From an uncultured Sphingomonadales bacterium (GTDB lineage Bacteria > Pseudomonadota > Alphaproteobacteria > Sphingomonadales > Sphingomonadaceae): a DNA stretch of 63,699 nt. The stretch lies in NCBI GenBank assembly GCA_937870585.1, contig CALMZE010000209.1, forward strand, positions 1 to 63,699. The letters run 5' to 3'. Made by a program: the position numbers and the translations under genes. This document shows positions 35,192-61,801 of the stretch, in pieces; the first letter of the stretch is position 1, and the number at the start of each line of letters is the position of its first letter. The notes beneath the pieces were generated by a model. That model did not search any database. It saw only the letters and a list, made by a program, of their open reading frames with translations, and was not told where the DNA came from.

Positions 35192-36433
35192 ATGGCAGAA
35201 GCAGTGGCGAATGATGGCGAGTTCCGGCGCGGCTGGCCGGTACTGTTTGCGTGCGTGCTCGGTGTGGGGCTGGGGCTTTCGCCTTTGCCGTTCTACACCA
35301 TGGGTGTGTTTGCACCGCATCTGGCCAAGGAATTTGGCTGGTCCATGTCGCAGATTATGGCAGGCCTCAGCATCACGACCATCTCAGTTGTCGTGGCAGG
35401 GCCAATGGCGGGTCTGCTCGCTGAACGCTTTGGCACAAGGCGGGTGGCCTTGCTGTCGCTGCTGCTCTTCGGCCTCGCCTTCATGTCGATGGCCAGGCTC
35501 GGCCCTTCGCTGACGCAATTCTATGTGACCTGGGGCGTGATTGCTGCAGTGGGCGCGGGAACGCTGCCCATCACCTTCACGCGCGCGGTCAATGGCTGGT
35601 TCGATGTCCATCGCGGCATGGCGCTGGGCATTGCGATGACGGGAACGGGCGTGTTCGGCATCTTGTGCAAGCCCTATCTGGCTTGGGTGATTGCCGATCA
35701 TGGCTGGCGTGCGGGCTATATCGCGCTTGGGGCCTTGCCGCTGCTGATTGCGCTTCCGGCATGCTTTTTCATGTTCCGCGATCCGCCGGAAGCCGATGTG
35801 GAACTGGGCCACAGCGTTGCCGAGCTGCCGGGGCTTTCGCGGGCTGAAGCGCTCAAGAGCTGGAAATTCTGGCTGATTGCCTTTGCCATGGTCATCATCC
35901 CCTTCTGTCTGGCGGGGCCAGTGCCCAATCTGGAGAAGATTTTGAGTGATCGCGGCTTTGATTCCGCGACGGCCCTTTCGCTCACACCGTTGATCGGGCT
36001 TTCAGCCATAGCGGGCCGTCTGATTGGCGGTTGGTTGCTGGATCGTTTCTGGGCACCCGGCGTGGCCTTTGTCATGCTGGGATTGCCCGCCATTGCCTGC
36101 TTCATCCTCGCAGGCGGCAGCTATGATGTGACGATGGGGGCCGTCGCCATCGCCATGATCGGATTTGCGCTGGGGATTGAATATGACGTGGTGGCATATC
36201 TCACCTCGCGCTATTTCGGGATGCGCGCCTATGCCGGGCTTTATGCGATCCTCTATGTCTGCTTCGCGGTCGGCTCTGGCGTCGCGCCGCTGGTGTTCGG
36301 CTATCTGCGCGATCTCAACCAGAATTACGCCACCGCGCTGATGATCTCTGCCATCGCCCTGCCGCTTGCATCCGCGCTGTTCCTGCTGCTGGGCCGCCAC
36401 CCCGTGTTCACGCGTGAAGGAGCCTCGGCATGA
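35192..36433 (+). CDS. MFS transporter (monocarboxylate-porter-like)
   Basis: I start at MAEAVANDGEFRRGWPVLF (35192). The frame is open far upstream, but that part is the antisense of the CpcT-like gene. The 413-residue protein has 12 likely membrane segments, a GLLAERFGTRRVALLSLLLF loop between helices 2 and 3, and an RFWAPGVAF loop after helix 8. The build is that of MFS organic-acid porters. It heads an operon in which all following genes overlap (MFS, cysteine hydrolase, two deacetylase-fold enzymes, reductase), so it may import a cyclic imide or organic acid. Confidence 0.83.
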   Translation: MAEAVANDGEFRRGWPVLFACVLGVGLGLSPLPFYTMGVFAPHLAKEFGWSMSQIMAGLSITTISVVVAGPMAGLLAERFGTRRVALLSLLLFGLAFMSMARLGPSLTQFYVTWGVIAAVGAGTLPITFTRAVNGWFDVHRGMALGIAMTGTGVFGILCKPYLAWVIADHGWRAGYIALGALPLLIALPACFFMFRDPPEADVELGHSVAELPGLSRAEALKSWKFWLIAFAMVIIPFCLAGPVPNLEKILSDRGFDSATALSLTPLIGLSAIAGRLIGGWLLDRFWAPGVAFVMLGLPAIACFILAGGSYDVTMGAVAIAMIGFALGIEYDVVAYLTSRYFGMRAYAGLYAILYVCFAVGSGVAPLVFGYLRDLNQNYATALMISAIALPLASALFLLLGRHPVFTREGASA

Positions 36434-37110
36434 CCCTCATCGGCACCCGCATGGTCAGCGACGGCAAGACCGCGCGCCAATTATTTGAAGAGGTGATGGC
36501 CAACCCGGCGCGGACCAAATTCGGCTTTGGCGAAAAGCTCGCAATTGTGAATGTCGATTTCCAGAACGCTTATACGCGGATCGATCGCTACAAGACGGCT
36601 TATGAAACCGATCCCCGGCAGATCGAACATGTCAACACGATCTCTGCACTGGCGCGCACCAAGGGGATGCCGGTCATCTGGACGCATGTCGCCTATGCCG
36701 AAGATGCGTCGGATGCGGGCGTTTGGGGCACGCGCACCGACACGCCCGACAGCCTGCAGAACATCAAATATGACTCGGACCGTCACGCCTTTGATGATCG
36801 CTGTGCCATCGATCCCACAGATATGATCTACACCAAGCGCATGCCGTCTGCCTTTTTTGAAACGCCGCTGCAAAGCTTGCTGGTGTGGCACAAGGTCGAT
36901 ACGGTGGTTGTGACCGGCGGCAGCACATCGGGCTGCGTGCGGGCAACGGCGGTGGATGCGCTTTCGCGTGGCTATCGCACCATTGTTCCCATCGAAACCT
37001 GCGCGGACAAGCATGAAAGCTATCACTTCGCCAATCTGACCGACCTTCAGCTCAAATATGCTGATGTGGAACCGGTGCAGACCGTGATCGACTGGCTGGA
37101 GGCGCGCTGA
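36430..37110 (+). CDS. Isochorismatase-fold cysteine hydrolase (maleamate amidase-like)
   Basis: The 226-residue protein has the cysteine-hydrolase triad: D43 in VNVDFQNAYTR, K136 in IYTKRMPSAFF and C169 in VTGGSTSGCVRATAVDAL. The family includes N-carbamoylsarcosine amidase and maleamate amidohydrolase (NicF), which hydrolyse linear amides. Its start overlaps the MFS stop and its stop overlaps the next start. Standing directly before two PuuE-like genes, it fits a role in hydrolysing the half-amide made when a cyclic imide is opened. That role is inference. Confidence 0.85.
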   Translation: MTLIGTRMVSDGKTARQLFEEVMANPARTKFGFGEKLAIVNVDFQNAYTRIDRYKTAYETDPRQIEHVNTISALARTKGMPVIWTHVAYAEDASDAGVWGTRTDTPDSLQNIKYDSDRHAFDDRCAIDPTDMIYTKRMPSAFFETPLQSLLVWHKVDTVVVTGGSTSGCVRATAVDALSRGYRTIVPIETCADKHESYHFANLTDLQLKYADVEPVQTVIDWLEAR

Positions 37111-37985
37111 TGCAGGAGGGTGCTGCCGATCCCGGCCTATATGACTATGTGCCCTATCGCGGGCGCACGCCGTTCGCCTGGCCGGGCGGTAAGAAGGTTG
37201 CTGTCTGGGTGTCTCCCAATCTCGAATATTACGAGATTGATCCGCCCGCCAACCCGCACCGCAAAAGCTGGCCGATGCCGCACCCCGATGTCGTCGGGTA
37301 CAGCCACCGCGATCATGCCAATCGCGTGAGCCATTGGCGCATGGCCGATGTGATGAGCAAGCATGGCTTTCCCGGCTCGGTTTCGCTCTCGGTTGCGCTC
37401 TGCCAGCACCACCCCCATGTCGTTGCCGATGCCAACGCGCGCGGCTGGGAGTTTTTCAGCCACGGCATTTACAACACGCGCTACTCCTACGGCATGGATG
37501 AGGCTCAAGAGCGCGCGATCATCGAGGATTCGATCCGCACCGTGCGTGAAGCCACCGGGCAGACGATCCGGGGCTGGCTCGCTCCGGCGCTGACTCACAC
37601 GCCGCGCACTCTTGACCTGATTGCCGAATATGGTCTGGATTACACTTGCGACCTGTATCACGACGACCAGCCGATGCCGGTCAAGACCGCGACCGGCGAC
37701 CTCATTTCCATGCCTTACAGTCTGGAGGTGAACGACCATTACGGCTTCTTCATCTATAATATGAGCCCGCGCGAATACGCCCGCACGCTGATCCGTCAAT
37801 ATGAGCGGTTGGCGGACGAGCCTTCGGGCACGGTCATGTGCATCCCGCTCCACTCGTATCTGATCGGCCAGCCGCACCGGATCGGGCCGTTTGAAGAGGT
37901 GCTGCGCCACATCGCTGCCGATGGCCGCGCCTGGCCTGCGCGCGCTGGCGAGATTGCCGATGCGTGGCGGGGGAGGGCACTATGA
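37110..37985 (+). CDS. Polysaccharide-deacetylase-fold hydrolase, PuuE/cyclic-imidase-like (1)
   Basis: The 291-residue protein resembles the allantoinase PuuE and cyclic imide hydrolase branch of the NodB fold rather than sugar deacetylases. Diagnostic stretches are RTPFAWPGGKKVAVWVSPNL at the N-terminus, DHANRVSHWRMADVMSKHGF, GWEFFSHGIYNTRYSYGM with a metal-site histidine, LYHDDQPMPVKTATGDLISM and CIPLHSYLIGQPHR. There is no signal peptide. It starts inside the cysteine-hydrolase stop (TGATG) and is followed by a paralogue. Ring opening of a cyclic imide or ureide is the likely reaction. Confidence 0.8.
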   Translation: MQEGAADPGLYDYVPYRGRTPFAWPGGKKVAVWVSPNLEYYEIDPPANPHRKSWPMPHPDVVGYSHRDHANRVSHWRMADVMSKHGFPGSVSLSVALCQHHPHVVADANARGWEFFSHGIYNTRYSYGMDEAQERAIIEDSIRTVREATGQTIRGWLAPALTHTPRTLDLIAEYGLDYTCDLYHDDQPMPVKTATGDLISMPYSLEVNDHYGFFIYNMSPREYARTLIRQYERLADEPSGTVMCIPLHSYLIGQPHRIGPFEEVLRHIAADGRAWPARAGEIADAWRGRAL

Positions 37986-38899
37986 GCCTCGACCCCAGCC
38001 ACCTCGAATACCCCAATCGCCGTGAAGGGTACGACCACGCGCTCTACCCCTATCGGGCATTGCATCAGGCTCCGGCAGTGCAGTGGCCGGGGGGAAAGAG
38101 CGTGGCCACATGGCTCTGCGTCAGCCTCGAATGGTTTCCGATTGTGCCGGAGGACAAGCCCTTCCGCGCGCCGGGCCATATGCAAACGGCCTATCCCGAT
38201 TATCGGCACTACACCGCGCGCGATTATGGAAACCGGGTTGGGGTTTATCGCCTGCTCGATAGTTTTGCGAAGGCGGGCGTCCCGGCCTCCTTCGCCGTCA
38301 ATGCCGCGATTTCCGAACGCTATCCGGTGCTGCTGCGCGATATCCAGTCCGCCGGGCATGAAGTGATCGCGCATTCGACCGACATGAACGGCACCATCGC
38401 CAGCACGCTGCCCGAAGCGGACGAACGCGCGCTGATCACCCGCGCGCGTGATGTGTTGGCTCAAGCCTGTGGTGCAGCCCCGCGCGGCTGGCTCTCCATC
38501 GCGCGGCAGCAGAGTTTCCGCACAGCGGATCTGCTCAAGGAAGCGGGCTTCGCCTATTGCTGCGACTGGGTGAATGACGAACTGCCCTGGGCCTTCACCA
38601 ACGGCCTCATCAACCTGCCGCTCAACCATGAACTGTCTGACCGGCAGATCTTGAACGTGCAGCAGCAGAGCGTGGACAGCTATGCCGAACAAATCTGTGA
38701 CGCGCATGACTGGCTGGCGGGTGAGGCTGCGGCGCAATCCTCCGCGCGGATGCTGCCGCTGCATCTGACGCCCTACATCATCGGGCTGCCTTATCGCATG
38801 GATGCGTTTGAAGGGCTGCTCGCCAACTTGAAAGCCCGCCCAGAGACATGGTTTGCGCGCGGGTCCGACATTCTCGAATCTTACCGGAGCCACATGTGA
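37982..38899 (+). CDS. Polysaccharide-deacetylase-fold hydrolase, PuuE/cyclic-imidase-like (2)
   Basis: Translation starts at MSLDPSHLEYPNRREGYDHA (37982) in an ATGA overlap, with GGGAGGG upstream. The 305-residue protein has the same order as the preceding gene product: VQWPGGKSVATWLCVSLEWF, RDYGNRVGVYRLLDSFAKAG, HEVIAHSTDMNGTIASTL and LPLHLTPYIIGLPYRMDAFE. It is more distant in the central part (CDWVNDELPWAFTNGLINLP), where other members have NDDQPY. The two proteins may form a hetero-oligomer or act on different rings. Confidence 0.78.
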   Translation: MSLDPSHLEYPNRREGYDHALYPYRALHQAPAVQWPGGKSVATWLCVSLEWFPIVPEDKPFRAPGHMQTAYPDYRHYTARDYGNRVGVYRLLDSFAKAGVPASFAVNAAISERYPVLLRDIQSAGHEVIAHSTDMNGTIASTLPEADERALITRARDVLAQACGAAPRGWLSIARQQSFRTADLLKEAGFAYCCDWVNDELPWAFTNGLINLPLNHELSDRQILNVQQQSVDSYAEQICDAHDWLAGEAAAQSSARMLPLHLTPYIIGLPYRMDAFEGLLANLKARPETWFARGSDILESYRSHM

Positions 38900-39912
38900 A
38901 CGCTTATGAACTGGGGCCGCAGACCGGCCTGTCCTCGCTGACCGCCACCACCCGCCCGCAACCCGTTCCCGGCCCCGGAGAGGCCGTGCTCAAAGTTCGC
39001 CTTGTTGCGCTCAACAACCGCGACATTCAGGTGCTGGAAGGCCGCTATGGCGCGAAGAAGGCGGAAGATCGTATTCCCGGCTCGGAAGGCGTGGGCGAAG
39101 TAGTGGCACTGGGTGAGGGCGTGTCGGGGCTTGCTCTGGGAGACCGGGCGGTGTTCGCACACTTCGTCAATTGGATCGATGGCGCGTTCAGCATGGCCTA
39201 TTTCGGCGCTGATTACGGCATCACCCACGATGGCTGGCTGGCCGAATACATCAAGGTGCCTGCCGCCACGCTGGTGAAGGTGCCCGACAGTTTGAGCGAT
39301 GAGCAAGTGGCCGGGTTGGCGTCATCGGCTCTGACCGCGTGGCACGCCGTGGTGGAAGTCGGGCAGGTCAAGGCAGGCGATACGGTTCTGGCACTCGGCA
39401 CGGGCGGCGTCGCCATCTGGGCGTTGCAGATTGCCAAGGCGGCGGGCGCGCGGGTGATCATCACCTCCTCCAGCGACGAGAAACTGGCGCTGGCGCGGAC
39501 GCTCGGCGCGGATATCACGATCAATTACCGCACGCATCCCGATTGGGAAGCCGAAGTGATGGCGGCGACCGGTGGCGCGGGCGCGGACATCATTGTCGAA
39601 ACCGGCGGACAGGCGGGGCTGGCTCGTTCGATCGCTGCTGCGGCCTGCAATGGCCGGATCGTCCTGATCGCCGTCGGCCCGCTGCCTGATGCGCCGCTGC
39701 CCAATTTTGGCGGGATCATCGGCAAGAATCTGACGATCAAAGGCATTGCCGAGGGCAGCCGCGCCATGATGGTCAGGCTGCTCAGGGCCATGGATGTGCA
39801 CGGCATCCAGCCGGTGATTGACCGGACCTTCGGCTTCGAAGAAGCGCCCGCCGCTTATGCCCATCTGGCGTCGGCCAGCCATGTCGGCAAGGTGATGGTG
39901 CGGGTGGGGTAA
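38896..39912 (+). CDS. Medium-chain dehydrogenase/reductase, quinone oxidoreductase-like
   Basis: I use the GTG at 38896, which overlaps the previous stop and gives VNAYELGPQTGLSSL; GGAGCC lies upstream. The 338-residue protein has the MDR fold with ALNNRDIQVLEGRYGAKKAE near residue 38 and the nucleotide site VLALGTGGVAIWALQIAKAA. Zinc-ligand cysteines are absent, so it is of the quinone oxidoreductase or enoyl reductase type, using NAD(P)H on an activated double bond or quinone. It is the last gene of the operon; a second MDR gene is at 50528. Confidence 0.83.
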   Translation: MNAYELGPQTGLSSLTATTRPQPVPGPGEAVLKVRLVALNNRDIQVLEGRYGAKKAEDRIPGSEGVGEVVALGEGVSGLALGDRAVFAHFVNWIDGAFSMAYFGADYGITHDGWLAEYIKVPAATLVKVPDSLSDEQVAGLASSALTAWHAVVEVGQVKAGDTVLALGTGGVAIWALQIAKAAGARVIITSSSDEKLALARTLGADITINYRTHPDWEAEVMAATGGAGADIIVETGGQAGLARSIAAAACNGRIVLIAVGPLPDAPLPNFGGIIGKNLTIKGIAEGSRAMMVRLLRAMDVHGIQPVIDRTFGFEEAPAAYAHLASASHVGKVMVRVG

Positions 39913-41460: not shown

Positions 41461-42297
41461 TTACGCTTCCAACCCCATGAAGCGGGCCATCACTATGCGG
41501 CGCGCTTCTGCGAAATCGGGCGCATCGAAACGGGGCAGGGGCGCAAAGGGAACGGGGGTCGAGAGCGCCTGCGTGGTCTCGAACAATGGGTCCGCTTCGC
41601 TCGCCATCAGCAAAGCGGGGACAATGAGCAGGGGCAGGCGTTCATGGGGCTGCCAACGGAAGGCGGCGTGATAGTTGAGGTGATAGCTGGTGCGCGCCTT
41701 CATTGTCTCCAGCACCAGACCCGCCAGATCGTCTGCCGGGGGCAGGCCGCCATCGCGCCGCGCCTCACGCGTGCGGTCGTGCCACGGGTAGAAGAGATAT
41801 TGATCGCGGCAATAGGCGAAGAGGCGCGTGAGGAAGCTGCCATCCAGATCGGCTTCGAACGGCGTGGCGTAGTGAGACAGGGCGTCGTCCAGCTCGGCCC
41901 CCTGCATATCGGTCAGCCCATCGAGCATCACGCCCTTCACCCGTTCCGGCGCGAGCAGTGCGAGTTCGGCGGCAATCGCGGCTCCAGTATGGCTGCCATA
42001 GACGTGAGCCGCTTCGATGCCCTGCGCGTCCATGAAGGCCAGCATCGCGCGCGCCAGATCGGTGATTTCATGCCCGTCACCCGGCAGCGGATCGGAATCG
42101 CCATTGCCCGGCGTGTCGGGCGCAATCACGCGCATCTGCGGCGCAAAGCTGCGGATCATCCGCTCCATCTGCTTCGCGCTGCCGGGTGAAGAATGAAGCA
42201 GCAGCAGTGGCGCACCTGCGCCAGCCGCTCGGAAATGCATCTGGCCGTGCGGCACATCGGCAAAGCCGCGCCGGATGGGAAGCGGGTCAGCGCCCAT
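41461..42297 (-). CDS. Alpha/beta-hydrolase fold protein with histidine at the nucleophile position
   Basis: The 278-residue protein has LLLLHSSPGSAKQMERMIRS, RVIAPDTPGNGDSDPLPGDG and the elbow HVYGSHTGAAIAAELALLAP, in which histidine sits where the serine nucleophile is expected (G-S-H-T-G). The paralogue at 21948 has G-F-H-T-G. Both also share GQMHFRAAG or GQMHYRAAG near residue 20. It overlaps the VOC gene by 11 bases, and a VOC/alpha-beta-hydrolase pair also occurs, divergently, at 20885-22766. Confidence 0.8.
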   Translation of the reverse strand: MGADPLPIRRGFADVPHGQMHFRAAGAGAPLLLLHSSPGSAKQMERMIRSFAPQMRVIAPDTPGNGDSDPLPGDGHEITDLARAMLAFMDAQGIEAAHVYGSHTGAAIAAELALLAPERVKGVMLDGLTDMQGAELDDALSHYATPFEADLDGSFLTRLFAYCRDQYLFYPWHDRTREARRDGGLPPADDLAGLVLETMKARTSYHLNYHAAFRWQPHERLPLLIVPALLMASEADPLFETTQALSTPVPFAPLPRFDAPDFAEARRIVMARFMGLEA

Positions 42298-43174
42298 CCA
42301 GCACTTCCAGCAACGCGCCGTCGGGCGTTTGCAGCACGCCGCTCATCCGGCCTCCATAAAGCGGCCCGTCGCGCCGGACGGGTTGGCTGAACCAATGCCC
42401 CGCCAGCCGCTTGGGATCGGGATGCAGCATCGAGACGATGGCCACGCCCGGTGGCAAGGCGCCGTCATGGCGCGGGCGCGGGGTGGCACCCTGCGGATAT
42501 TGATCGAGCTCGATGATCAGATCCTGCCCCGGCCAATTGGCTGTCACAATCTCGGTGCGCGCTTCGGGGGAGAGGGCGAAGGACTTCTCGATCATGGTGT
42601 AGCGGATGGCCACTGGATCGCTCACATCCAGCCCCAGCACATCGCGGGTCCAGCCGATGCTGCCGCGCAAATCTTCGCAGGCCAGCACCATGATGAAGGG
42701 GCGGTCGATCAGCGACTGCGGCACGGGCAGGCCCTGTGCGGCCCCATTGGTGGGCATTTGCGTCAGATAGACGATTTCGTCATCAGGCCCGCGCACTTGC
42801 ATGGGGATGACCATCTCGAACCCGTCGAGCGGCTTGGGTGGGCCGATGACGGTGAAGGGAGAAGCCTGCATCCGGGCGTGGACGGCCTCGACATCAGTCA
42901 CGCAAATCTCGGTCGCGGCCCAGCCATAGGTGCGGATCGGGGTATAGCCCGGAACCTTATCGCCCTCGACAAGGCGTAGAAACACATCCGCGCCCGAAGC
43001 GGGCTGAATCACAGCGTAGGCGCGGCCTGCGCTCGCGGGGCAGCCCCATGCGGCGGCAAGATCGGCGGGGATATGGCCCTGTTCGACCATGCGATAATCG
43101 AGCCACTGCGCATAGCAGTCGCTGGCTTCCGTCACGTTGGCAACGACATGAGTGGCGGCTTTGAGCAGGGTCAT
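42287..43174 (-). CDS. VOC-family two-domain protein
   Basis: The 295-residue protein has two glyoxalase/dioxygenase-fold halves: KAATHVVANVTEASDCYAQW at the N-terminus and FIMVLACEDLRGSIGWTRDV near residue 160, with YAVIQPASGADVFLRLVEGD between. Its start overlaps the stop of the PrpD-like gene (ATGA). Function unknown; its repeated association with the HTG-type alpha/beta-hydrolase suggests the two act in sequence. Confidence 0.75.
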   Translation of the reverse strand: MTLLKAATHVVANVTEASDCYAQWLDYRMVEQGHIPADLAAAWGCPASAGRAYAVIQPASGADVFLRLVEGDKVPGYTPIRTYGWAATEICVTDVEAVHARMQASPFTVIGPPKPLDGFEMVIPMQVRGPDDEIVYLTQMPTNGAAQGLPVPQSLIDRPFIMVLACEDLRGSIGWTRDVLGLDVSDPVAIRYTMIEKSFALSPEARTEIVTANWPGQDLIIELDQYPQGATPRPRHDGALPPGVAIVSMLHPDPKRLAGHWFSQPVRRDGPLYGGRMSGVLQTPDGALLEVLDGR

Positions 43175-47430: not shown

Positions 47431-47465
47431 CGGGGTGGTTCGGTCTTAGATACTGAAGGAATTTG

Positions 47466-52905: not shown

Positions 52906-53501
52906 CGCCCTTCACCACACTCACCGGCATCGCCGCACCGCTGCTGCGCGACAATGTCGATACCGATGCAATCATCCCCTCGCGAGAGATGAAGAGCACC
53001 GGGCGCACTGGTCTGGCAGACGGGCTATTCGCGCCGTGGCGCTACAGCGAAGGGCGGACGCCAAACCCGGATTTCGTGCTCAATCAGCCGGACTTTGCGC
53101 GCGCGCCGATCCTCCTTTCGGGCACCAATTTCGGCTGCGGGTCGAGCCGTGAACATGCGGTCTGGGCGCTCGCCGAACATGGCATAAGGTGTGTGATCGC
53201 AGAGAGTTTTGCGCCGATCTTCGCTGCGAACTGCATCCGCAACGGACTGTTGCCTGTGGTAATGCCTCAAGAGGCGGTGCGCGCGCTGACGGGGCAAATG
53301 GTGACGGTCGATCTGGCCGGACAAAGTGTTTCAGCGAACGGGCAGAGCTGGACTTTCGCGATGGACGCGGAACCCAAGGCGATGCTCCTCGAAGGGCTGG
53401 ATGCGATTGATCTGACGCTCAAGAGCCTGCCCGACATTGACCGCTGGACGCGCGAAGACCGCGCGGCGCGCCCCTGGGTCTATCTGGAGAATAACGCATG
53501 A
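52902..53501 (+). CDS. Aconitase-superfamily hydratase, LeuD-like small subunit (1)
   Basis: The 199-residue protein starts at MTPFTTLTGIAAPLLRDNVD (52902) in an ATGA overlap. DTDAIIPSREMKSTGRTGLA and TNFGCGSSREHAVWALAEHG are the swivel-domain signatures of LeuD; the SREH segment contacts the substrate carboxylate. Its length is typical. It completes the hydratase with the preceding large subunit and precedes the lyase gene. Confidence 0.85.
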   Translation: MTPFTTLTGIAAPLLRDNVDTDAIIPSREMKSTGRTGLADGLFAPWRYSEGRTPNPDFVLNQPDFARAPILLSGTNFGCGSSREHAVWALAEHGIRCVIAESFAPIFAANCIRNGLLPVVMPQEAVRALTGQMVTVDLAGQSVSANGQSWTFAMDAEPKAMLLEGLDAIDLTLKSLPDIDRWTREDRAARPWVYLENNA

Positions 53502-54418
53502 CCGCCATTTTGGTCTCCGAGGTTGGCCTGCGTGACGGGCTGCAATCGATCGACCGGGTCATGCCGCTCGAAGCCAAAAAGGCCTGGATCGCTGCCGAAT
53601 CTGCTGCGGGCGTGCGCGAGATTGAGGTGGGCAGCTTTGTGCCGCCGTCGCTCCTGCCGCAAATGGCTGATACGGCAGAGTTGGTGGCCTTTGCGCGCAC
53701 GCTGCCCGGCTTGAATGTTGTGGCGCTTGTCCCCAACGCCAAGGGCGCGGCGCGGGCGGTGGAGGCGGGCGTCCACGGCCTCTCCATCCCCTTTTCAATG
53801 AGCGAAACGCATTCGCTGCGCAATGTCCGCAAGGATCATCCCGCGATGCTCACCGAAATTGCGGAAGTGGCCCGGATAGCGGGAGCGGCCGGCGTGCATT
53901 GCGCGGTCGGCCTCTCCACCGCCTTTGGCTGCACGATCGAAGGCGCTGTGGCCGAAGATACGGTGGTGCGGCTGGCCGAAGCGGCGGTCGCAGCGGGTGC
54001 GAAGGAACTCAGCCTGTCAGACACGACCGGCTATGCTGATCCAGCGCAAGTCAAGCGGCTGGTGCGGCGTGTGAAGGCGGCGGTGGGCGCGGATGTGCTG
54101 ACCACGCTCCACCTCCACAACACGCGCGGGCTGGGCCTCGCCAATGCCTGTGCCGGGCTGGAGGAAGGGATCACCACGCTGGATTCATCGCTCGGCGGGC
54201 TGGGCGGTTGTCCCTATGCGCCGGGCGCGTCGGGCAATCTGGTGACCGAGGATCTGGTGCTGATGCTCAACGCCATGGGGCTGGAGACCGGAATTGATCT
54301 TGAGGCGCTGCTGAAGGTCCGCGCGATTGTGGCCGAGGCGCTGCCCGGAGAGCCGCTCTATGGCTTCACGCCCGATGCCGGGCCGATGCTCGATTATGCA
54401 GAAAGGATCGCAAGGTGA
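53498..54418 (+). CDS. Hydroxymethylglutaryl-CoA lyase-family protein
   Basis: The 306-residue DRE-TIM barrel starts ILVSEVGLRDGLQSIDRVMP with the catalytic arginine, has EIEVGSFVPPSLLPQMADT, the metal-site histidines in TLHLHNTRGLG, and the signature GLGGCPYAPGASGN with the active-site cysteine. HMG-CoA lyase makes acetoacetate and acetyl-CoA and would finish leucine degradation started by liuA, liuB and liuD. Sitting between a LeuCD-like hydratase and a CoA transferase, it might instead cleave a substituted malyl-type CoA thioester. Both are possible. Confidence 0.87.
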   Translation: MTAILVSEVGLRDGLQSIDRVMPLEAKKAWIAAESAAGVREIEVGSFVPPSLLPQMADTAELVAFARTLPGLNVVALVPNAKGAARAVEAGVHGLSIPFSMSETHSLRNVRKDHPAMLTEIAEVARIAGAAGVHCAVGLSTAFGCTIEGAVAEDTVVRLAEAAVAAGAKELSLSDTTGYADPAQVKRLVRRVKAAVGADVLTTLHLHNTRGLGLANACAGLEEGITTLDSSLGGLGGCPYAPGASGNLVTEDLVLMLNAMGLETGIDLEALLKVRAIVAEALPGEPLYGFTPDAGPMLDYAERIAR

Positions 54419-55590
54419 ACGATGCACCCACTCCGCTTGCGGGCATCCGCGTGGTGGAATTCACGCATATGGTGATGGGGCCAGCCGTGGGCCATATCCT
54501 TGCCGGTCTGGGCGCAGAGGTGATCCGCATCGAACCGATTGGCGGAGATCAGACCCGGCGCTTGCTCGGATCGGGCGCGGGCTATTTCCCCATGTATAAT
54601 CGCGGCAAGCAATCGATCTGCCTGAATCTCAAGTCTGAAGAGGGCCTCTCCATCGCGCGCGATCTGGCCGCGAGCGCGGATGTGCTTGTGGAGAATTTCC
54701 GCCCCGGCGCGCTGGACCGGCTGGGGCTCGATTATGAGACGCTGAGCGCCACCAATCCGCGCCTTATCTATTGTTCGGAAAAGGGGTTTCTGCCCGGCCC
54801 TTATGAGGATCGCACCGCGCTGGATGAAGTGGCGCAGATGATGGGCGGGCTTGCCTATATGACCGGGCCGCCCGGACGCCCCTTGCGCGCGGGCTCCAGC
54901 GTGATCGATGTGACGGGCGGCATGTTTGGCGTCATCGGCATCATGGCAGCGCTGGAAGAACGGCACCGCACCGGGCGTGGGCAGAAGGTGATTGCCTCAC
55001 TCTTTGAAACCACCGTCTATCTCGTGGGCCAACACATGGCGCAATTTGCGGTGACGGGGAAACCCGCTGCGCCCATGCCCGCGCGCATTTCCGCATGGGC
55101 AATATACGACGTGTTCGAAACGCAGGATGAGCCGGTATTCATCGGCGTGGTGAGCGACAGCCTGTGGGAGAAATTCTGCGCACTGTTCGGGCTGGATGAG
55201 CTTTGGGCCGATCAAAGCCTGCGCGCCAACAACCAACGTGTGCTGGCGCGCGACCGCATTCTGCCCACCATCCGCGCTCTGATCGGCGGGATGACGCGGG
55301 CCGAGGTGATTGCCAAGCTCGAAGGCACTGGCCTGCCCTTTGCTCCTATTGGCAAGCCCGAGGATATGTTCGATGATCCCCATCTGGCCGATGGCGGGCT
55401 GGAACAGGTGACGCTCGACGATGGTCGAGTCACTCATTTGCCTACCTTGCCCATCCAGATGGACGGAAAGCGGGCGGGAAGCCCGACGACGCTGCCAGCC
55501 CCCGGGGCCGGAACACGCAGTATCCTTGCAGCATTGGGCTATCCGGACGGACAAATTGCCAAGCTGATGGAGAGCGGCGCGGTGGCTTAG
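54415..55590 (+). CDS. CaiB/BaiF-family (class III) CoA transferase
   Basis: The GTG start at 54415 overlaps the lyase stop. The 391-residue protein has GIRVVEFTHMVMGPAVGHIL, GLGAEVIRIEPIGGDQTRRL, FPMYNRGKQSICLNLKSEEG, VLVENFRPGALDRLGLDYET, and the catalytic aspartate in SSVIDVTGGMFGVIGIMAAL. Class III transferases move CoA between acids, for example activating malate-type acids with succinyl-CoA. It supplies the activation the neighbouring lyase would need. It converges on the cysteine hydrolase gene with overlapping stop codons. Confidence 0.88.
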   Translation: MNDAPTPLAGIRVVEFTHMVMGPAVGHILAGLGAEVIRIEPIGGDQTRRLLGSGAGYFPMYNRGKQSICLNLKSEEGLSIARDLAASADVLVENFRPGALDRLGLDYETLSATNPRLIYCSEKGFLPGPYEDRTALDEVAQMMGGLAYMTGPPGRPLRAGSSVIDVTGGMFGVIGIMAALEERHRTGRGQKVIASLFETTVYLVGQHMAQFAVTGKPAAPMPARISAWAIYDVFETQDEPVFIGVVSDSLWEKFCALFGLDELWADQSLRANNQRVLARDRILPTIRALIGGMTRAEVIAKLEGTGLPFAPIGKPEDMFDDPHLADGGLEQVTLDDGRVTHLPTLPIQMDGKRAGSPTTLPAPGAGTRSILAALGYPDGQIAKLMESGAVA

Positions 55591-56219
55591 GCGTGAATGC
55601 GCTCCAGAAACGCAATCACCTCCGCCTCGCTGACCACATCGGCATATTTGGCGTTCATATCGAACAGATTGGCCTCGTGCGGGGCGGCGTGGCGATCCCC
55701 GCACGCATCCGCCACCACGGCCGTGCGGAAGCCGTGTGACATGGCGTCGACGCAGGAAGCGCGCACGCATCCACTCGTCGTCAGTCCGGTCAGGATTACG
55801 CTGTCGCGCTGCATCGCGGTCAGGGTGGAGGCCAGTGATGTGCCGAAAAAGGCGCTGGGATATTGTTTGGAGACGACCAGTTCATCGCCGAACGGCACCA
55901 GCCCCGGCCCAAACGCCCCCATTGGGCTGCCCTTCAGGAAGTTCTTGAGCGGTGCGGCTTTTTCAAAAAAGCGGCCGCCATCAATCGCTTGCGGGTGATA
56001 GACGACATTGGTGAGGATCACGGGAACCCCCGCTGCCCGCGCCGCCGCCCGAACGCGCAAGGCCGATTCGAGCGCAGCCTCCACGCCCGAATAAAGATCA
56101 TTGCCCGGCTCGAAATAGGCTTGGCAGAAATCGATCAGGATCAGCGCGGGCTTGCTGCCAAAGCCGACGCGGGTGTTGTAGGCGCGGCTGTAATTGGCGA
56201 GCAGGTCTTCATCACTCAT
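55587..56219 (-). CDS. Isochorismatase-fold cysteine hydrolase (maleamate amidase-like)
   Basis: The 210-residue protein starts at [20 protein letters not shown] (56219), overlapping the LeuD-like stop. It has the triad D30 (LILIDFCQAYF), K118 (VVSKQYPSAFF) and C151 (LTGLTTSGCVRASCVDAM). NVVYHPQAIDGGRFFEKAAP resembles the maleamate amidohydrolase/N-carbamoylsarcosine amidase group. Here it is encoded right after a LeuCD-type hydratase, linking amide hydrolysis to hydration of the resulting acid. Confidence 0.86.
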   Translation of the reverse strand: MSDEDLLANYSRAYNTRVGFGSKPALILIDFCQAYFEPGNDLYSGVEAALESALRVRAAARAAGVPVILTNVVYHPQAIDGGRFFEKAAPLKNFLKGSPMGAFGPGLVPFGDELVVSKQYPSAFFGTSLASTLTAMQRDSVILTGLTTSGCVRASCVDAMSHGFRTAVVADACGDRHAAPHEANLFDMNAKYADVVSEAEVIAFLERIHA

Positions 56220-56845
56220 CGGGGTTGCATCTCCGTGTAAAGCCAGGGCTGGACTATGCGTTGTCCGGCCTCGAATGCAGCAATTTCTGCGCCAAAGCGA
56301 TTGAGAATCTGGTCCGTCTCGTCCCAGCCGTTGAGCAGGGCCTCGCGTCGTTCCGGGGGAATGCTGAAAGGGATCGGCTCCATGCCCTCGACCTCTACAC
56401 GCTGGCGCTCCAGATCGACACTGAAAGTGCGGCCTGCTTCCGCTGCGTCCATCAGCTTTGCACAGATTTCGGGAACAAAGGTGAGCGCCAGCATCCCGTT
56501 GCGTAGGCAATTACCCGCAAAAATCTCGCCGAGAGACGGCGCGACGACCACGCGGATGCCAAAGCCATGTAGAGCCCATACAGCTTGTTCGCGACTGGAG
56601 CCTGAGCCAAAATTGGCACCCGCCACAATCAGCTTGGCCTCCCTGAAAGGCGCGCGGTTGAGAATGAAATCCCCCACTTCGCTGCCATCGGCCAGAAACC
56701 TTCGGTCATGAAAAGCATGAACGCCCAGTCCCTCGCGCTGGGTGAGCAGCAAGAAGCGCGCGGGGAAGATGATGTCGGTATCGATGTTATCCTCAGGCAT
56801 GGCGGCGGCCACGCCGGTGATGCGGGTGAACGGCTCCATGCTCAT
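56216..56845 (-). CDS. leuD: 3-isopropylmalate dehydratase-type small subunit, LeuD-like (2)
   Basis: The 209-residue protein starts [20 protein letters not shown] (56845) in overlap with the large subunit. [20 protein letters not shown] and [20 protein letters not shown] are LeuD signatures, and the length and C-terminus ([19 protein letters not shown]) are canonical. It could be leucine biosynthetic, but its operon (exported hydrolase, large subunit, small subunit, cysteine hydrolase) is catabolic. Confidence 0.85.
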
Positions 56846-58242
56846 GCCACCAGCTCCCGCACATCGATGATGCAGCCAGCAACCGCAGCCGCTGCCGCCA
56901 TGGCTGGGCTCATCAGATGCGTGCGCCCTCCCGGCCCCTGACGCCCTTCGAAATTGCGGTTGGAGGTGCTGGCGCATCGATCCCCGGCAGACAGGCGATC
57001 ATCATTCATCGCGACGCACATTGAACAACCCGCAAAGCGCCACTCAACCCCGGCATCGCGGAACACAGCGTCCAGCCCTTCGGCCTCGGCCTGAGCGCGC
57101 GTAGCGGCAGAACCGGGAACGACAAGTGCTGTCACGCCATCAGCGACCTTCCGTCCCTTCACAATAGCCGCCGCGGCCCGCAGATCCTCGATCCGGCCAT
57201 TGGTGCATGAGCCGATAAAGGCGTGCGTGATTGGCGTGCCTGCAAGCGCCTGACCCGGCTCCAACCCCATATAAGCGAGCGCTTTCTCGGTCTCGCGCCG
57301 CTCGGACGGATCGGTCATGGTGGCAGGATCGGGGATCGGGGCGGTGATCGGCACAGTCTGGTTCGGGCTTGTCCCCCAACTCGCCTGTGGTTCAACCGTC
57401 GCCAGATCGAGCGTCACCAGCCGGTCGAAGACCGCATCCGCATCGCTCGGCAATGTCTGCCAATAGGCGAGCGCTGTATCCCACAGCGCCCCTTGGGGGG
57501 CGAGAGCGCGGCCCTTCAGATAGGCGAAGGTCACATCGTCCGGTGCCACCAGCCCGATGCGGCTGCCTGCCTCGATGGTCATGTTGCACAGCGTCATCCG
57601 CGCCGCCATCGACATGGCGGAGATCGCAGGCCCGGCAAATTCAACCGCATAGCCCACCGCGCCATTCGCACCGATTGTTGCGATTAGGGCGAGCGCAATG
57701 TCCTTGGCGGAGACATGAGCGGACAGGCCGCCTGTCAATTCCACCCTCATCGTTTTGGCGCGCGTCTGGCGCAGGCACTGCGCGGCCATCACCGTGCCCT
57801 GTTCGCTCGCGCCAATGCCGAACGCGAGCGCCCCAAACGCGCCGTGCGTGGTCGTGTGACTGTCACCGCAGACGATGGTGGTGCCGGGCAGCGTATAGCC
57901 CCGCTCTGGCCCTATCACATGCACGATGCCCTGTTCCGCACTGTCGAGCGCGGCATAAGGCACGCCAAAATCTGCGACATTGGCCTCCAGCTCGGCGACC
58001 TGCGCGCGCGCCTGTGGGTCGGCAATCGCGCCGCGCCCGCGCGTTGGCACGGCATGATCAGCCACCGCCAGATGGGTTTCGGGTCGCCGCAATTGCCGAC
58101 CGGCTGCGCGCATCGCGACAAAGCCTTGCGGGCTACTCACCTCATGCAGGATTTGCCGGTCGATATAGATCAGCGCCTCAGTATCAGAGAGAGACGCTAC
58201 AATGTGGCTGTCCCACAATTTTTCATAGAGAGTGCGCGGCAT
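56842..58242 (-). CDS. leuC: 3-isopropylmalate dehydratase-type large subunit, LeuC-like (2)
   Basis: The 466-residue protein matches LeuC in length and in nearly all landmarks: [60 protein letters not shown] and [20 protein letters not shown] with the cluster cysteines, then [18 protein letters not shown]. It is much closer to canonical LeuC than the copy at 51538. Isopropylmalate isomerisation and hydration of a substituted maleate are both possible. It begins three bases from the stop of the exported hydrolase. Confidence 0.88.
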
Positions 58243-58245
58243 GGC

Positions 58246-59214
58246 TCAGGGCTTTGGCACAATGGTTTCAATATATTCGGCAATCAGCCGTGCGAAGCGA
58301 TCCGGCACCTCCAGCGGCGGATAGTGGCCGATATCGGGCATCAGCGCGACAGAGATTGGCGCATTGGCCAGATAACGCTCAATCGCATCCGCTGCGGATT
58401 TCGGGAGCAAAGGATCGCCCGTGCCCCAGATCAGGAAAGTCGGGGCGGTGACCTTGGCCATTTCGATGGTCGCCTGTTTCCCGTCGCCAATGCGGGCGAC
58501 CATGGCGATGGGATATTTCTCGTTCGCGCGGCGGTTAAAGTCATAATATTCGGCGCGCGTCTTGGCGCTGATCCGCTTGGGATCGCCGGAGAAGTAGGAG
58601 AGATACTCGTTCCAGAAGGTCAGGTTCTGATATTTGGTGCGTTGTGCGTCCGCCTGTGCGGCCAGAAAGCTCTCCGGCATTTTCAGATGATCGGTTTTCA
58701 CCGGATCAGAGGGCGTGTTGGACAGGATCAGCCGCTCGACCAGATCGGGCCGCCGCGCCGCGAGATACATGCCCATTGTTCCGCCGCTGGAGACACCCAC
58801 GACGGTGGCCTTCTTCACGTTCAGCCGGGTGAGCAGTTCTTCCGGAATATCAACCGGGTTCACCGTTGTCGCGACCTCGTCACTCACCGAGGCAGAGAGG
58901 CCGTAGGCCGGAATGTCATAACGGATGATGCGGTAGCGCCCTTTGAGCAACTGCGTGATCCGGTCCCATGTCCGCAGGCTGCTTTGCGAACCATGCACCA
59001 AGAACAGCACCGGCCCCTTGCCCTCATCCTTGTAATGGATCTCGGTGCCCTTGATCACCATGTAGCGGCTGCGTGCATCCTGATATTTGGCGCGCAACGC
59101 CTGTACCGTCAGGCGGGGATGTTCAGGCGTGGAGGGCTGGCCCTGTGCAACGGCGGCGGAAGGCAGCGCGGCAAGCAAGGCGGCCATCAGGGCGAGGCGG
59201 AGCGGAGCAATCAT
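58246..59214 (-). CDS. Sec-exported alpha/beta hydrolase
   Basis: The 322-residue precursor begins with a signal peptide (MIAPLRLALMAALLAALPSA, cleavage after AVA). It has GPVLFLVHGSQSSLRTWDRI, IIRYDIPAYGLSASVSD, TVVGVSSGGTMGMYLAARRP with the nucleophile serine, APTFLIWGTGDPLLP with the acid, and MPDIGHYPPLEVPDRF with the histidine, so the triad is complete. Unlike the two HTG-type proteins it should be an active esterase or C-C hydrolase, in the periplasm. It heads a four-gene operon divergent from the amine oxidase. Confidence 0.86.
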   Translation of the reverse strand: MIAPLRLALMAALLAALPSAAVAQGQPSTPEHPRLTVQALRAKYQDARSRYMVIKGTEIHYKDEGKGPVLFLVHGSQSSLRTWDRITQLLKGRYRIIRYDIPAYGLSASVSDEVATTVNPVDIPEELLTRLNVKKATVVGVSSGGTMGMYLAARRPDLVERLILSNTPSDPVKTDHLKMPESFLAAQADAQRTKYQNLTFWNEYLSYFSGDPKRISAKTRAEYYDFNRRANEKYPIAMVARIGDGKQATIEMAKVTAPTFLIWGTGDPLLPKSAADAIERYLANAPISVALMPDIGHYPPLEVPDRFARLIAEYIETIVPKP

Positions 59215-59256
59215 GGTCTGGCGATTCCAATTGAGCGGCAGGTCATCACCGCGTGA

Positions 59257-59275: not shown

Positions 59276-59295
59276 TTTCCGAAAGGCTGGCCTGA

Positions 59296-59314
59296 CTATC
59301 CGACTGGTGGTGAG
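59296..59314. promoter_or_regulatory. Shared 19-bp palindrome, copy 6
   Basis: CTATCCGACTGGTGGTGAG agrees at 12 of 16 arm positions with the consensus, in the divergent gap between the exported hydrolase and amine oxidase genes. Confidence 0.5.
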
Positions 59315-59402
59315 GGTGTCGCGCTTTGATCGACGCGCGCGCCTGGCTGTGGCGTGACGCTGTCAAAGCACGTAGCATCATGCCTTCAGGGAGTCCGGGC
59401 CA

Positions 59403-60857
59403 ATGGAATTCAGCAGACGGAATTTTGCGCTGGGCGCTGCCGGATTGGGGCTCGCCAGCCTGACAAGCCCGCTTTACGCCGCGAAAAAGGTGAACAAGCC
59501 CAGGCCGCCTGCCATGCTCGATGTGCTGGTGCTCGGTGCTGGCGCTTCCGGCTTGCAAGCGGCATGGATGCTGGAAGAGCAAGGCCTGAAGGTGAAGGTG
59601 CTGGAAGGCCGCAACCGCGTGGGCGGGCGGATCATGACGCTGCTCGATCAGCCCGGTTACCCTGAAATGGGCTTCAATTCGATGGCGGACGGCTATGGCC
59701 GGGGCATTGACGTGGCGTCGCGGGCTGGTGTGGAATTGCAGGAAGTCGGCGCGCGTTATCGTCTCGGCAAACCACCCATGCTGTGGTTCGATGGCAAACC
59801 GCTCACCCGCGAAGAATGGGCGCGGCATCCCGCCAACCCGTTCCCCGACAGCATGAAGACGATGATGCCCGGCGAACTGGTGTCACGGGTGGTGGCCCAG
59901 CATACGCGTCTGAAGGATTGGGCAACTTGGAATGATCCCGCGAACGCCGCGCTCGACATCCCGCTGCACGAATTCCTGCGCGCGCAGGGCTTGTCCGATG
60001 CGGCGATCCAGCTCGCCAACAACATCTCGCCCTATTACGGCACCAACTCTTGGGACGTTTCGGCGCTGATGCTGGAGTATAATGACGGCTTCGTGAAGGC
60101 GCAGTTTGCCGCTGGTCCGCAGTCGCTCGCGGTCAAGGGCGGCAATATTCACATGGCCACCGGCATGGCCAAGCTGCTCAAGGGCGATGTCATCCTCGGC
60201 AAGGAAGTGATTGCGATTGAGAGCGGTCCCACCAGCGCCAAAGTCTGGTGCCGAGATGGGACCACGTTCGAAGCCAAGCGCGTCATTTCCTCGCTGCCCT
60301 TTTCCACGCTGCGCCATGTGAAGATCATGCCCGGCCTGTCAGGTGCGCAGGCCGAAGCCGTGGCTCAGCTGCCATATCAGCCGCTCTCGATTGCCTTCCT
60401 GACCGCTTCTGCGCCGTTCTGGGAAGAGGATGGCTATGCGCCCGGCATGTGGGTCAACGGTCCGGTCGGCACCGTGCTGCCGCAACGCTATGGCGCGACG
60501 CCCGAAGAAATCACCGGCTTTCAGGTGCAAGCACGCGGGGAAATGGCGCATTATTGGGATCGGATGGGCAAAGACGCTGCGCTCGCCATGGTCGTCTCCC
60601 AGATAGAAGAGATGCGGCCAGCGGCCAAGGGCAAGCTGAAAGGTGCAGCCTATTTCAGCTGGTGCAAAGAGGCGTTCAATGGTGGCGACTGGGCCTATTT
60701 CGGCCCCGGCCATGTCCGCCGCTTTGTCAATGAAATGGCGAAGCCCGCCGGACGCCTGCATTTCTGCGGCGAACATACCGCAACGGGCGCGCGCGGCCTT
60801 GAAGGGGCGCTCGAATCCTCCGAACGCGTTACGCTAGAAATCCTTGAAGCCGCATAA
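59403..60857 (+). CDS. Tat-exported flavin monoamine oxidase-family protein
   Basis: The 484-residue protein opens with a Tat signal (MEFSRRNFALGAAGLGLASL). The FAD fold follows as MLDVLVLGAGASGLQAAWML and KVLEGRNRVGGRIMTLLDQP, with the amine-oxidase C-terminal block RLHFCGEHTATGARGLEGAL. The middle region (ISPYYGTNSWDVSALMLEYN) forms the substrate domain. Tat export with folded FAD fits. Family members oxidise amines or amino acids, or desaturate ring systems, so the natural substrate remains open. It begins the plus-strand operon with the third imidase-like gene. Confidence 0.86.
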   Translation: MEFSRRNFALGAAGLGLASLTSPLYAAKKVNKPRPPAMLDVLVLGAGASGLQAAWMLEEQGLKVKVLEGRNRVGGRIMTLLDQPGYPEMGFNSMADGYGRGIDVASRAGVELQEVGARYRLGKPPMLWFDGKPLTREEWARHPANPFPDSMKTMMPGELVSRVVAQHTRLKDWATWNDPANAALDIPLHEFLRAQGLSDAAIQLANNISPYYGTNSWDVSALMLEYNDGFVKAQFAAGPQSLAVKGGNIHMATGMAKLLKGDVILGKEVIAIESGPTSAKVWCRDGTTFEAKRVISSLPFSTLRHVKIMPGLSGAQAEAVAQLPYQPLSIAFLTASAPFWEEDGYAPGMWVNGPVGTVLPQRYGATPEEITGFQVQARGEMAHYWDRMGKDAALAMVVSQIEEMRPAAKGKLKGAAYFSWCKEAFNGGDWAYFGPGHVRRFVNEMAKPAGRLHFCGEHTATGARGLEGALESSERVTLEILEAA

Positions 60858-60886
60858 CGGCCAATCACAGAAACGGGCTTGAACCG

Positions 60887-61801
60887 ATGGACTATGATTA
60901 TATCCCCCTGCCCCAGCGCCAGCCGCTGAAATGGCCCAATGGCGCGCGGGTTGCGCTGATCCTGACCTTCAATCTGGAGACATGGGATCTCACCAAGGAT
61001 ACAGACAAGCCCTATTATGCGGGAGGTCCGGCGATCCTGCCCGATGTGCTGCCCGGCAATATTCCCGATTTCCCGAACTTCACCTGGCGCGAATATGGCC
61101 AGCGTGTCGGCATCTGGCGGCTGATCGAATTGTTCGACAAACTGGGTGTGAAGGCCAGTTGCACCACCAATGCCGTGACGTTCGAACGGCGCAAGGCGAT
61201 GACCGATGCGGTGCTGGAACGCGGCTGGGAACTGCTCACGCACAATTGGGAGCAAGGCGAGCTTCTCACCAGCTTCGCGCAAGACCCGGCCAAGGAGCGT
61301 GACATCGTGCTCCGCTCGCTCGACCAGTTCGAGAAGTTCACCGGACGCAAGTCGAAGGGCTGGCTTTCCTCCTCGCTGCGGGGCACGCTTCAGACCGCGG
61401 ACATTCTCGCGGAGCAAGGCTGCACCTTCTACTGCGACATCATGAATGATGATCAGCCCTATCTCCTGCGCACGCCCAACGGGCCGATCGTCTCCGTCCC
61501 CTACTCCAACGAGATCAATGATTTCACCTTCATCACCCGCAAGAATTATACGACCGACCAGTTCCGCGATGCGCTGATCGAGGAACTCGACGTGCTCTAT
61601 GAAGAGGGTGCCGTGACGGGGCGGATCATGAATGTCGGGCTTCACCCGCATGTCTCTGGCCGGGCGCACCGCGTCCGCGCGCTGCGTGAATTTATCGAGC
61701 ATGCCAAGTCTCTCCCCGGAGTGTGGTGGGCCACGCGCGAGGAAATTGCCGACTGGTATCTCGCCAACCACGAGACGCACATTCCCGGACAATTGGCATG
61801 A
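60887..61801 (+). CDS. Polysaccharide-deacetylase-fold hydrolase, PuuE/cyclic-imidase-like (3)
   Basis: The 304-residue protein is the most canonical of the three in this window: LKWPNGARVALILTFNLETW, REYGQRVGIWRLIELFDKLG, GWELLTHNWEQGELL, CDIMNDDQPYLLRTPNGPIV, VPYSNEINDF and NVGLHPHVSGRAHRVRALRE, then WWATREEIADWYLAN. This set of motifs is that of the PuuE allantoinase and cyclic-imide hydrolase branch. There is no signal peptide. Its stop overlaps the FAD monooxygenase start. Hydrolysis of a cyclic amide or imide is likely. Confidence 0.84.
   Translation: MDYDYIPLPQRQPLKWPNGARVALILTFNLETWDLTKDTDKPYYAGGPAILPDVLPGNIPDFPNFTWREYGQRVGIWRLIELFDKLGVKASCTTNAVTFERRKAMTDAVLERGWELLTHNWEQGELLTSFAQDPAKERDIVLRSLDQFEKFTGRKSKGWLSSSLRGTLQTADILAEQGCTFYCDIMNDDQPYLLRTPNGPIVSVPYSNEINDFTFITRKNYTTDQFRDALIEELDVLYEEGAVTGRIMNVGLHPHVSGRAHRVRALREFIEHAKSLPGVWWATREEIADWYLANHETHIPGQLA

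Follow-up and report, generated by a model that had tools for sequence, protein, structure and literature searches.

A seven-gene set with a probable role in the catabolism of a cyclic compound

The stretch of DNA analysed here (the window: 63,699 nucleotides of contig CALMZE010000209.1, from an uncultured Sphingomonadales bacterium) belongs to a genome of 3.8 Mb in 233 contigs and carries seven genes that probably constitute a new pathway. Its enzymes come from known families, from which we in part infer the chemistry. All seven lie on the forward strand: the isochorismatase-fold amidase ICH1 (36430..37110; Pfam), the predicted ring-opening hydrolase IMI1 of the PuuE branch (37110..37985), a second PuuE-branch protein, IMI2 (37982..38899), the large and small subunits LEUC1 (51538..52905; Pfam Aconitase) and LEUD1 (52902..53501; Pfam Aconitase_C) of an aconitase-type hydratase, the HMG-CoA-lyase-family lyase HMGL (53498..54418; Pfam HMGL-like) and the class III coenzyme A (CoA) transferase CAIB (54415..55590; Pfam CoA-transferase III). 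On balance, and with moderate confidence, we read the trio ICH1-IMI1-IMI2 together with LEUC1-LEUD1-CAIB-HMGL as a single pathway that breaks down a small cyclic imide or a closely related cyclic amide. Functions were assigned by family, the genomes compared are a sample, and genes within the loci were called with simple scripts and tblastn. No description of the seven-gene set was found in the literature surveyed, outside of which fell most subscription journals.

In the proposed route IMI1, partnered by IMI2, would open the ring, whereupon ICH1 would take off the amide nitrogen as ammonia and leave a substituted maleate. Judged by their families, LEUC1/LEUD1 would hydrate this to a substituted malate, CAIB would transfer CoA onto the latter and HMGL would cleave the thioester to yield an acyl-CoA and a 2-oxo acid. 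The argument starts from what is directly observed: which families the genes belong to, that the catalytic residues are intact in IMI1 and ICH1, that the set is inherited together, and that in other lineages a PrpB-like lyase, often with a DmdAB-like hydratase, stands beside the same hydrolases. The first-pass annotation had proposed a route from imide via maleamate, substituted maleate and substituted malate to a CoA thioester and on to small acyl units for this set and for a neighbouring group (ICH2, LEUD2, LEUC2 and IMI3, of module 2); comparative genomics strengthens it for the seven genes, with module 2 less secure and the imide itself deduced.

Organization and co-inheritance of the set

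The named genes were all confirmed as open frames at their annotated positions, and the families that had been claimed for them were borne out by Pfam and NCBIfam searches. Two main operons can be discerned, MFS-ICH1-IMI1-IMI2 (35192-38899) and FAD4-QOR-LEUC1-LEUD1-HMGL-CAIB (48939-55590); a third, ICH2-LEUD2-LEUC2-ABH2, runs in the opposite direction and adjoins AMOX and IMI3. Neighbours overlap by 1-4 bases along both main operons and along ICH2-LEUD2-LEUC2, so that the description as 'tight operons' holds within each of them; the main operons are 10 kb apart here, with other genes between.

To what extent the genes are inherited together was analyzed in 149 Sphingomonadaceae genomes, own genome included; the statistics carry no correction for descent. 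IMI1 was present in 28 genomes. HMGL was recovered in 27 at E 1e-60, and in 25 after the 42-43% paralogues of G090 and G085 had been dropped; all 25 carry IMI1. Three genomes (G022, G082, G121) have IMI1 without HMGL and 121 have neither (Fisher p 2e-25, uncorrected). In 21 of the 24 other HMGL neighbourhoods all seven genes lie within ~10 kb, and these 21 come from 19 genera. The remaining three (L037, L041 and L043, from G038, G030 and G113, respectively) hold only HMGL and CAIB; in each of these genomes IMI1-IMI2 (L070-L072), a 70-71% LEUC1 and a 71-76% ICH1 lie at three other, separate sites. The seven genes stay co-present even where they are dispersed. In L032-L036, HMGL immediately precedes ICH1-IMI1-IMI2 in the same orientation.

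A second, named collection yielded at least 581 relatives. The analysis was continued with the best 80, among which 71 loci measured at least 13 kb. IMI1, IMI2 and ICH1 occur together in 71/71 and all seven genes in 58/71. Nine of the remaining 13 hold the trio only, eight of them from Novosphingobium, and four of these trio-only loci (L094-L097) retain much of the long layout of the window. For the nine, as well as for L091, HMGL was found elsewhere in the genome in all cases (10/10, 78-90% identity). The closest relatives of the window's IMI1 are from Novosphingobium and other sphingomonads. Two records, L118 (Peristeroidobacter) and L133 (Steroidobacter), genera which we take to be Gammaproteobacteria, contain all seven genes. 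Considering that their IMI1 sequences share 85% and 84% identity, respectively, with that of the window, versus 50-62% in Alphaproteobacteria outside the family, a transfer of the set is likely.

An alternative lyase outside the family

In a wider sample of 337 Alphaproteobacteria an IMI1 relative was recovered at E 1e-45 in 45 genomes, own genome included. We analyzed 19 of the 20 full-length loci from outside the family with an IMI1 of at least 50% identity (18 genomes), plus one at 43%. IMI2 was present in 19/19, ICH1 in 17/19 and a PrpB-like lyase near IMI1 in 10/19; seven of these ten also hold DmdA-like and DmdB-like hydratase genes. L053 (G321), from one further family of the Alphaproteobacteria, carries the complete CoA version. 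The lyase of L052 scored 294 bits against the prpB model, under the cut-off of 354.4, and its small subunit scored 176.7 bits against TIGR02087 (LeuD/DmdB), over the cut-off of 108.95; no dimethylmalate-lyase model was among the matches of L052 at E 1e-15. Since a free-acid lyase appears, on basis of the families, to replace the CoA-transferase and HMGL, the swap points to a substituted malate as the intermediate.

The three family genomes with IMI1 only fit in here. G121 and G082 have a PrpB-like lyase near IMI1 and a LeuC of only 46-47%; G022, which is 67% complete, holds a 68% LEUC1 fragment and an 83% ICH1 directly adjoining a 49% PrpB-like gene. On contig C311 of G022 and contig C1 of G038, ICH1 (83% and 76%) lies ~15-30 bases from a PrpB-like gene, and IMI1-IMI2 are found elsewhere. 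A strict mutual exclusion of the two endings was not supported: 6/125 loci hold both HMGL and a PrpB/PEPM-type gene, in a combined set that includes a few duplicate contigs from two collections, for which reason the counts of the separate collections are preferred. The IMI2 tally of the combined set, 125/125, was set aside, since IMI2 can hit the IMI1 gene itself there. G038 has both lyase types in one genome, and in L035/L114 the PrpB/PEPM-type gene adjoins IMI3 (L087).

The PuuE-branch hydrolases and the amidases

The PuuE model TIGR03212 was the top NCBIfam match for IMI1 (99.5 bits), IMI2 (89.3) and IMI3 (142.7). Pfam assigned Polysacc_deac_1 to IMI1 and IMI2, and IMI3 matched no Pfam family at E 0.001. 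The fold ranking, which was made for IMI1 only and in which GH57 and virus turret matches were set aside as common-fold, placed PuuE closest, ahead of the sugar deacetylases. A role of IMI1 as sugar or peptidoglycan deacetylase was rejected on this ranking and the residues. Both IMI1 and IMI3 carry the PuuE-type N-x-E, the first His, Asp181, Asp185 and the final LH His. IMI2 has S-x-E instead of N-x-E and lacks the final catalytic His (H248 equivalent) common to IMI1, IMI3 and PuuE: the position is Thr in 20/20 aligned sequences, and a nearby His is kept in only 15/20. IMI2 accompanies IMI1 in 79/80 loci of the second collection as well as in the loci from outside the family, and its sequence suggests that it is possibly a non-catalytic partner of IMI1. 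A pair of this kind would be unusual in the polysaccharide-deacetylase fold.

The best structural matches of ICH1 in the PDB were 4l07, 4l08, 26st, 1nba and 3ot4. Asp43, Lys136 and Cys169 are invariant across 21 ICH1 sequences, and ICH2 has the same Asp, Lys and Cys. We take these residues to be the catalytic triad of isochorismatases and maleamate amidases, so that the triads reported as intact for both cysteine hydrolases are indeed so. ICH1 is predicted to be the second hydrolase, freeing ammonia from a half-amide.

Predicted hydration, CoA transfer and cleavage

LEUC1 scored 493.4 bits against the LeuC model TIGR00170, under the cut-off of 560.25, and LEUC2 scored 685.9 bits, over it; LEUD1 and LEUD2 both exceed the cut-off of the LeuD model. 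Cys335, Cys396 and Cys399 of LEUC1 are kept and LEUC2 likewise has the three cysteines, presumably the positions of the Fe-S ligands. HMGL scored 265.8 bits against NF004283 (HMG-CoA lyase subfamily; cut-off 246), with 6nds and 1ydo as PDB matches, and is predicted to cleave a malyl-CoA-type thioester. CAIB matched PF02515 with 360.4 bits, over the Pfam cut-off, and reached the cut-off of none of the seven NCBIfam models that it matched, the best being a succinate-glutarate CoA-transferase (245 versus 750 bits); its top PDB matches were 4ed9, 4hl6 and 9br6.

That LEUC/LEUD and HMGL are ordinary genes of leucine metabolism would agree with the scores of LEUC2, LEUD2, LEUD1 and HMGL, which pass the LeuC, LeuD or HMG-CoA lyase cut-offs. 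The same genome, however, has a separate, higher-scoring LeuC on contig C215 (754 bits), to which LEUC1 is only 47% identical, and HMGL tracks IMI1. By this comparison of sequences LEUC1 is distinct from the housekeeping LeuC, and leucine biosynthesis or breakdown was rejected for LEUC1 and HMGL; as an account of the hydratase and lyase genes it is highly improbable. For LEUC2, which may be a LeuC duplicate, the reading is retained.

Observations at odds with a single imide pathway

Several observations weigh against the proposed pathway. To begin with the hydrolases, IMI1-3 all stay far under the curated cut-off of the PuuE allantoinase equivalog TIGR03212 (424.6 bits), and the zinc ligands of the branch nearest the characterised cyclic imidases (P. 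putida YZ-26, HxnM and HpPgdA-like proteins) are absent from all three. These ligands are, according to the excerpt of PMC3084791, an Asp-x-Asp and two His in HpPgdA, from which the set was taken rather than from the sequences of YZ-26 or HxnM; in IMI1-3 the motif reads N/S-x-E, and the second His is missing. Given both facts, neither an imide nor an allantoin activity is fixed. The earlier description of three PuuE/cyclic-imidase-like genes stands as far as the PuuE branch and the residues of IMI1 and IMI3 are concerned, and does not extend to the final His of IMI2 or to the ligands of zinc-branch imidases. As to the amidases, structures of N-carbamoylsarcosine hydrolases ranked close to those of maleamate amidases in the search with ICH1 and led the list for ICH2.

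The N-carbamoylsarcosine hydrolase matches (26st, 1nba), together with the fact that PuuE itself is an allantoinase (excerpt of PMC3084791), would agree with a cyclic ureide of the hydantoin or allantoin type as substrate. IMI1 would then yield an N-carbamoyl compound from which ICH1 removes the carbamoyl group, and the skeleton would reach the hydratase and lyase steps otherwise. IMI3 loci elsewhere, with EutA/arylmalonate-decarboxylase-like and (by eye) HyuA/HyuB-like genes, are in line with this. A carbamoyl amino acid, however, would yield no maleate, yet a hydratase accompanies the trio whichever of the two lyases is used, and we consider a ureide possible, if unlikely.

Other exceptions concern the distribution of the genes. 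Among the eight genomes from outside the family with an HMGL of at least 60% identity, three (G324, G419, G182) lack both an IMI1 at 50% and a LEUC1 above 52%, which suggests that HMGL-CAIB also serves elsewhere. No lyase of either kind was found in the stretch examined in 8/19 loci from outside the family. For L054 (the second copy of G321) and L056 (G416) the CoA set is present elsewhere in the genome (L178 and L176, respectively), and L064 (G480) has HMGL-CAIB on another contig (L173). L059, L062, L063, L066 and L068 have neither ending nearby, their genomes having been searched for HMGL only, and in G332 and G478 (L066 and L068) no ICH1 above 33% was found. Within the family, a PrpB-like gene was recovered at E 1e-60 in 11 genomes, only four of which have IMI1, and hence the PrpB-like family alone does not mark the pathway.

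Such exceptions raise the question whether two independent functions stand side by side, a nitrogen-scavenging trio and a pathway for a C-branched dicarboxylate (citraconate-like) or HMG-CoA. The 10 kb between the main operons of the window would be explained in this way, as would the HMGL-CAIB of G324, G419 and G182 without the trio nearby. Against it speak the 25/25 co-occurrence within the family, which includes three genomes with the genes unlinked, and the position of HMGL directly upstream of the trio in L032-L036. We judge two separate functions to be quite improbable and continue with a single imide pathway.

The putative substrate

We infer that the ring substrate is an imide, and favour the 2,3-disubstituted maleimides as its class. 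A tentative and rather unlikely specification is that the pathway mineralises maleimides derived from chlorophyll or haem, like haematinic acid, methylethylmaleimide and methylvinylmaleimide. The diacid that corresponds to haematinic acid, methyl-cis-homoaconitate, would suit a hydratase of the HacA/DmdA type and, after it, an enzyme of the methylisocitrate-lyase type, to give pyruvate and glutarate; in the version of the window, CoA-transferase and HMGL would give pyruvate and glutaryl-CoA. The excerpt of PMC7318184, a leaf study, lists both haematinic acid and maleimides among the products of chlorophyll breakdown; the study itself found haematinic acid and did not detect maleimides.

Reaction-centre genes were identified in 25/149 family genomes, and IMI1 was present in 10 of these 25 versus 18 of the 124 others (p 0.009, uncorrected). 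The window's own genome has no reaction-centre genes. Phototrophy is thus a weak correlate and was not used as support. In L056 (8774-16700; G416) the trio is found close to genes that by eye resemble those for 5-aminolevulinate synthase, Mg-protoporphyrin ester cyclase and Puh.

Relation to known systems

The nicotinate pathway of Eubacterium barkeri proceeds via the dimethylmaleate hydratase DmdAB and a dimethylmalate lyase. It thus shares a LeuCD-type hydratase of a substituted maleate and an ICL/PEPM-family lyase with the loci in which the trio occurs outside the family; it is not known to include a cyclic imidase, and it uses a free-acid lyase where the window has CoA-transferase and HMGL. 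The maleamate amidases NicF and Ami (structures 3uao, 4l07 and 4l08) have the isochorismatase fold and act on the half-amide of maleate, as predicted for ICH1. In their pathways N-formylmaleamate is the source of the maleamate, and isomerisation of maleate yields fumarate, which differs from the route proposed here. PuuE allantoinase (3cl6) shares the fold of IMI1 and the catalytic residues of IMI1 and IMI3; it differs in that the IMI scores are far under the allantoinase cut-off and in that the trio's neighbours are not those of purine catabolism.

The lyase of itaconate/C5 branched dicarboxylate degradation presumably belongs to another family than HMGL. The excerpt of PMC12290011 describes for this pathway a CoA-transferase, a hydration, a citramalyl-CoA lyase and an MmgE/PrpD-family isomerase, all of which have counterparts in the window; the hydration takes place at the CoA level, and the excerpt names no imidase or amidase. 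In the HxnM and HxnN steps of nicotinate degradation in Aspergillus nidulans a fold-related cyclic imidase likewise opens an imide, after which an amidase frees ammonia (excerpt of PMC9304392). HxnM differs in having the zinc-binding protein 3qbu as its nearest relative and in leading to alpha-hydroxyglutarate, and the HxnM/HxnN steps in that excerpt include no hydratase, CoA-transferase or lyase, unlike the window.

The occurrence of the seven-gene set in 19 sphingomonad genera, one other alphaproteobacterial family and two Steroidobacter-type records, with another lyase ending elsewhere, suggests a widespread, uncharacterised pathway for carbon and nitrogen among bacteria of soil and water. 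It provides testable functions for proteins otherwise labelled polysaccharide deacetylase, isopropylmalate dehydratase or HMG-CoA lyase. If tetrapyrrole maleimides were indeed the substrate, the set would represent the bacterial end that the tetrapyrrole carbon cycle still lacks, and would fill a gap in chlorophyll's return to central metabolism; chlorophyll is made and degraded on a scale of 10^12 kg yearly (excerpt of PMC7318184).

Module 2 and accessory genes

Module 2 looks related in logic to the main set, and is less secure. It comprises, on the reverse strand, the second isochorismatase-fold amidase ICH2 (55587..56219; Pfam), LEUD2 (56216..56845), LEUC2 (56842..58242) and the alpha/beta hydrolase ABH2 (58246..59214; Pfam), with an N-terminus that by eye resembles a signal peptide, and on the forward strand the flavin amine-oxidase-family gene AMOX (59403..60857; Pfam), with a twin-arginine-like start (by eye), and IMI3 (60887..61801). 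IMI3 is present in 13/149 family genomes and shares 11 of these with IMI1 (uncorrected p 1e-7), and its seven best plasmid matches are all from Novosphingobium (88-93% identity). The 12 loci around or near IMI3 (L076-L087) include ICH2 in three, an ICL/PEPM-type lyase in seven and an arylmalonate-decarboxylase/EutA-like gene in eight cases; L078 has ICH2-LEUD2-LEUC2-ABH2 beside IMI3 as in the window. HyuA/HyuB hydantoinase-oxoprolinase-like genes (by eye) occur together with an ICL/PEPM-type lyase in L080, L081 and L086.

The first main operon starts with an MFS transporter (35192..36433, forward; Pfam MFS_1), which possibly imports the substrate or an acid; a 49% relative adjoins ICH1-IMI1-IMI2 outside the family (L053, L054). 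The operon is followed by an accessory gene of the zinc-type alcohol dehydrogenase/quinone reductase family (38896..39912, forward, start approximate; Pfam), with a relative in 20/71 loci. On the reverse strand lie two further accessory genes. The first encodes a two-module VOC-fold protein (42287..43174; glyoxalase I/extradiol dioxygenase fold), the AlphaFold model of which (predicted local distance difference test score 92) had glyoxalase I (6bnz) as top Foldseek match and resembles extradiol dioxygenases as well; the predicted structure gave a fold and no function. The second encodes an MmgE/PrpD-family protein (43171..44535; Pfam), with relatives of at least 50% in 5/125 IMI1 loci; the gene is conserved at this place in Novosphingobium (68-69% in L094-L097) and in G321 (56%, L053). 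A member of the MmgE/PrpD family from a different cluster has proved to be an isomerase of methylsuccinate (excerpt of PMC12290011), and one may speculate that the protein of the window acts on a branched succinate.

The remaining genes are on the forward strand. A methyltransferase-domain gene (45746..46969, start approximate; Pfam), accessory and often linked, has relatives in 39/71 loci and, at 40% identity or more, in 32/125. It is followed by a gene for a 118-aa protein (46966..47322) without an NCBIfam match at E 1e-6, and by eye the pair also occurs in L079, L080, L083 and L086. VOC copies (50-52%) and methyltransferase copies (65-66%) adjoin LEUC1-HMGL in L176 (G416) and L178 (G321). 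The accessory flavocytochrome c/fumarate-reductase-type flavoprotein FAD2 (47463..48857) scored 217 bits against TIGR01813 and 146 bits against the TcuA model, both under the cut-offs; FAD2-like genes are found near IMI1 in L055, L060, L074 and L075. FAD4 (48939..50531; Pfam), a FAD_binding_4 oxidase/dehydrogenase with D-lactate dehydrogenase and the VAO family among its PDB matches, leads the LEUC1-CAIB operon and is also located beside LEUC1-HMGL in L178. The quinone-reductase-family gene QOR of the same operon (50528..51541) has a relative in only 1/71 loci. Together, the accessory genes suggest that a larger substrate gives rise to the ring or is one through which it feeds.

The combination of a FAD_binding_4 oxidase and a methyltransferase-domain protein is present twice in the window (23555-25330 with 26745-27974, and 48939-50531 with 45746-47322), and L079 and L083 again show a run of methyltransferase, small protein and FAD4, next to IMI3. 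Finally, the left half of the window (2996-20727) contains genes for a GMC oxidoreductase, a biotin carboxylase, a carboxyltransferase and an acyl-CoA dehydrogenase, as well as a linalool dehydratase/isomerase-domain protein (16233-18140) and a B12-binding radical SAM protein (19225-20727), and is perhaps devoted to the breakdown of terpenoids.

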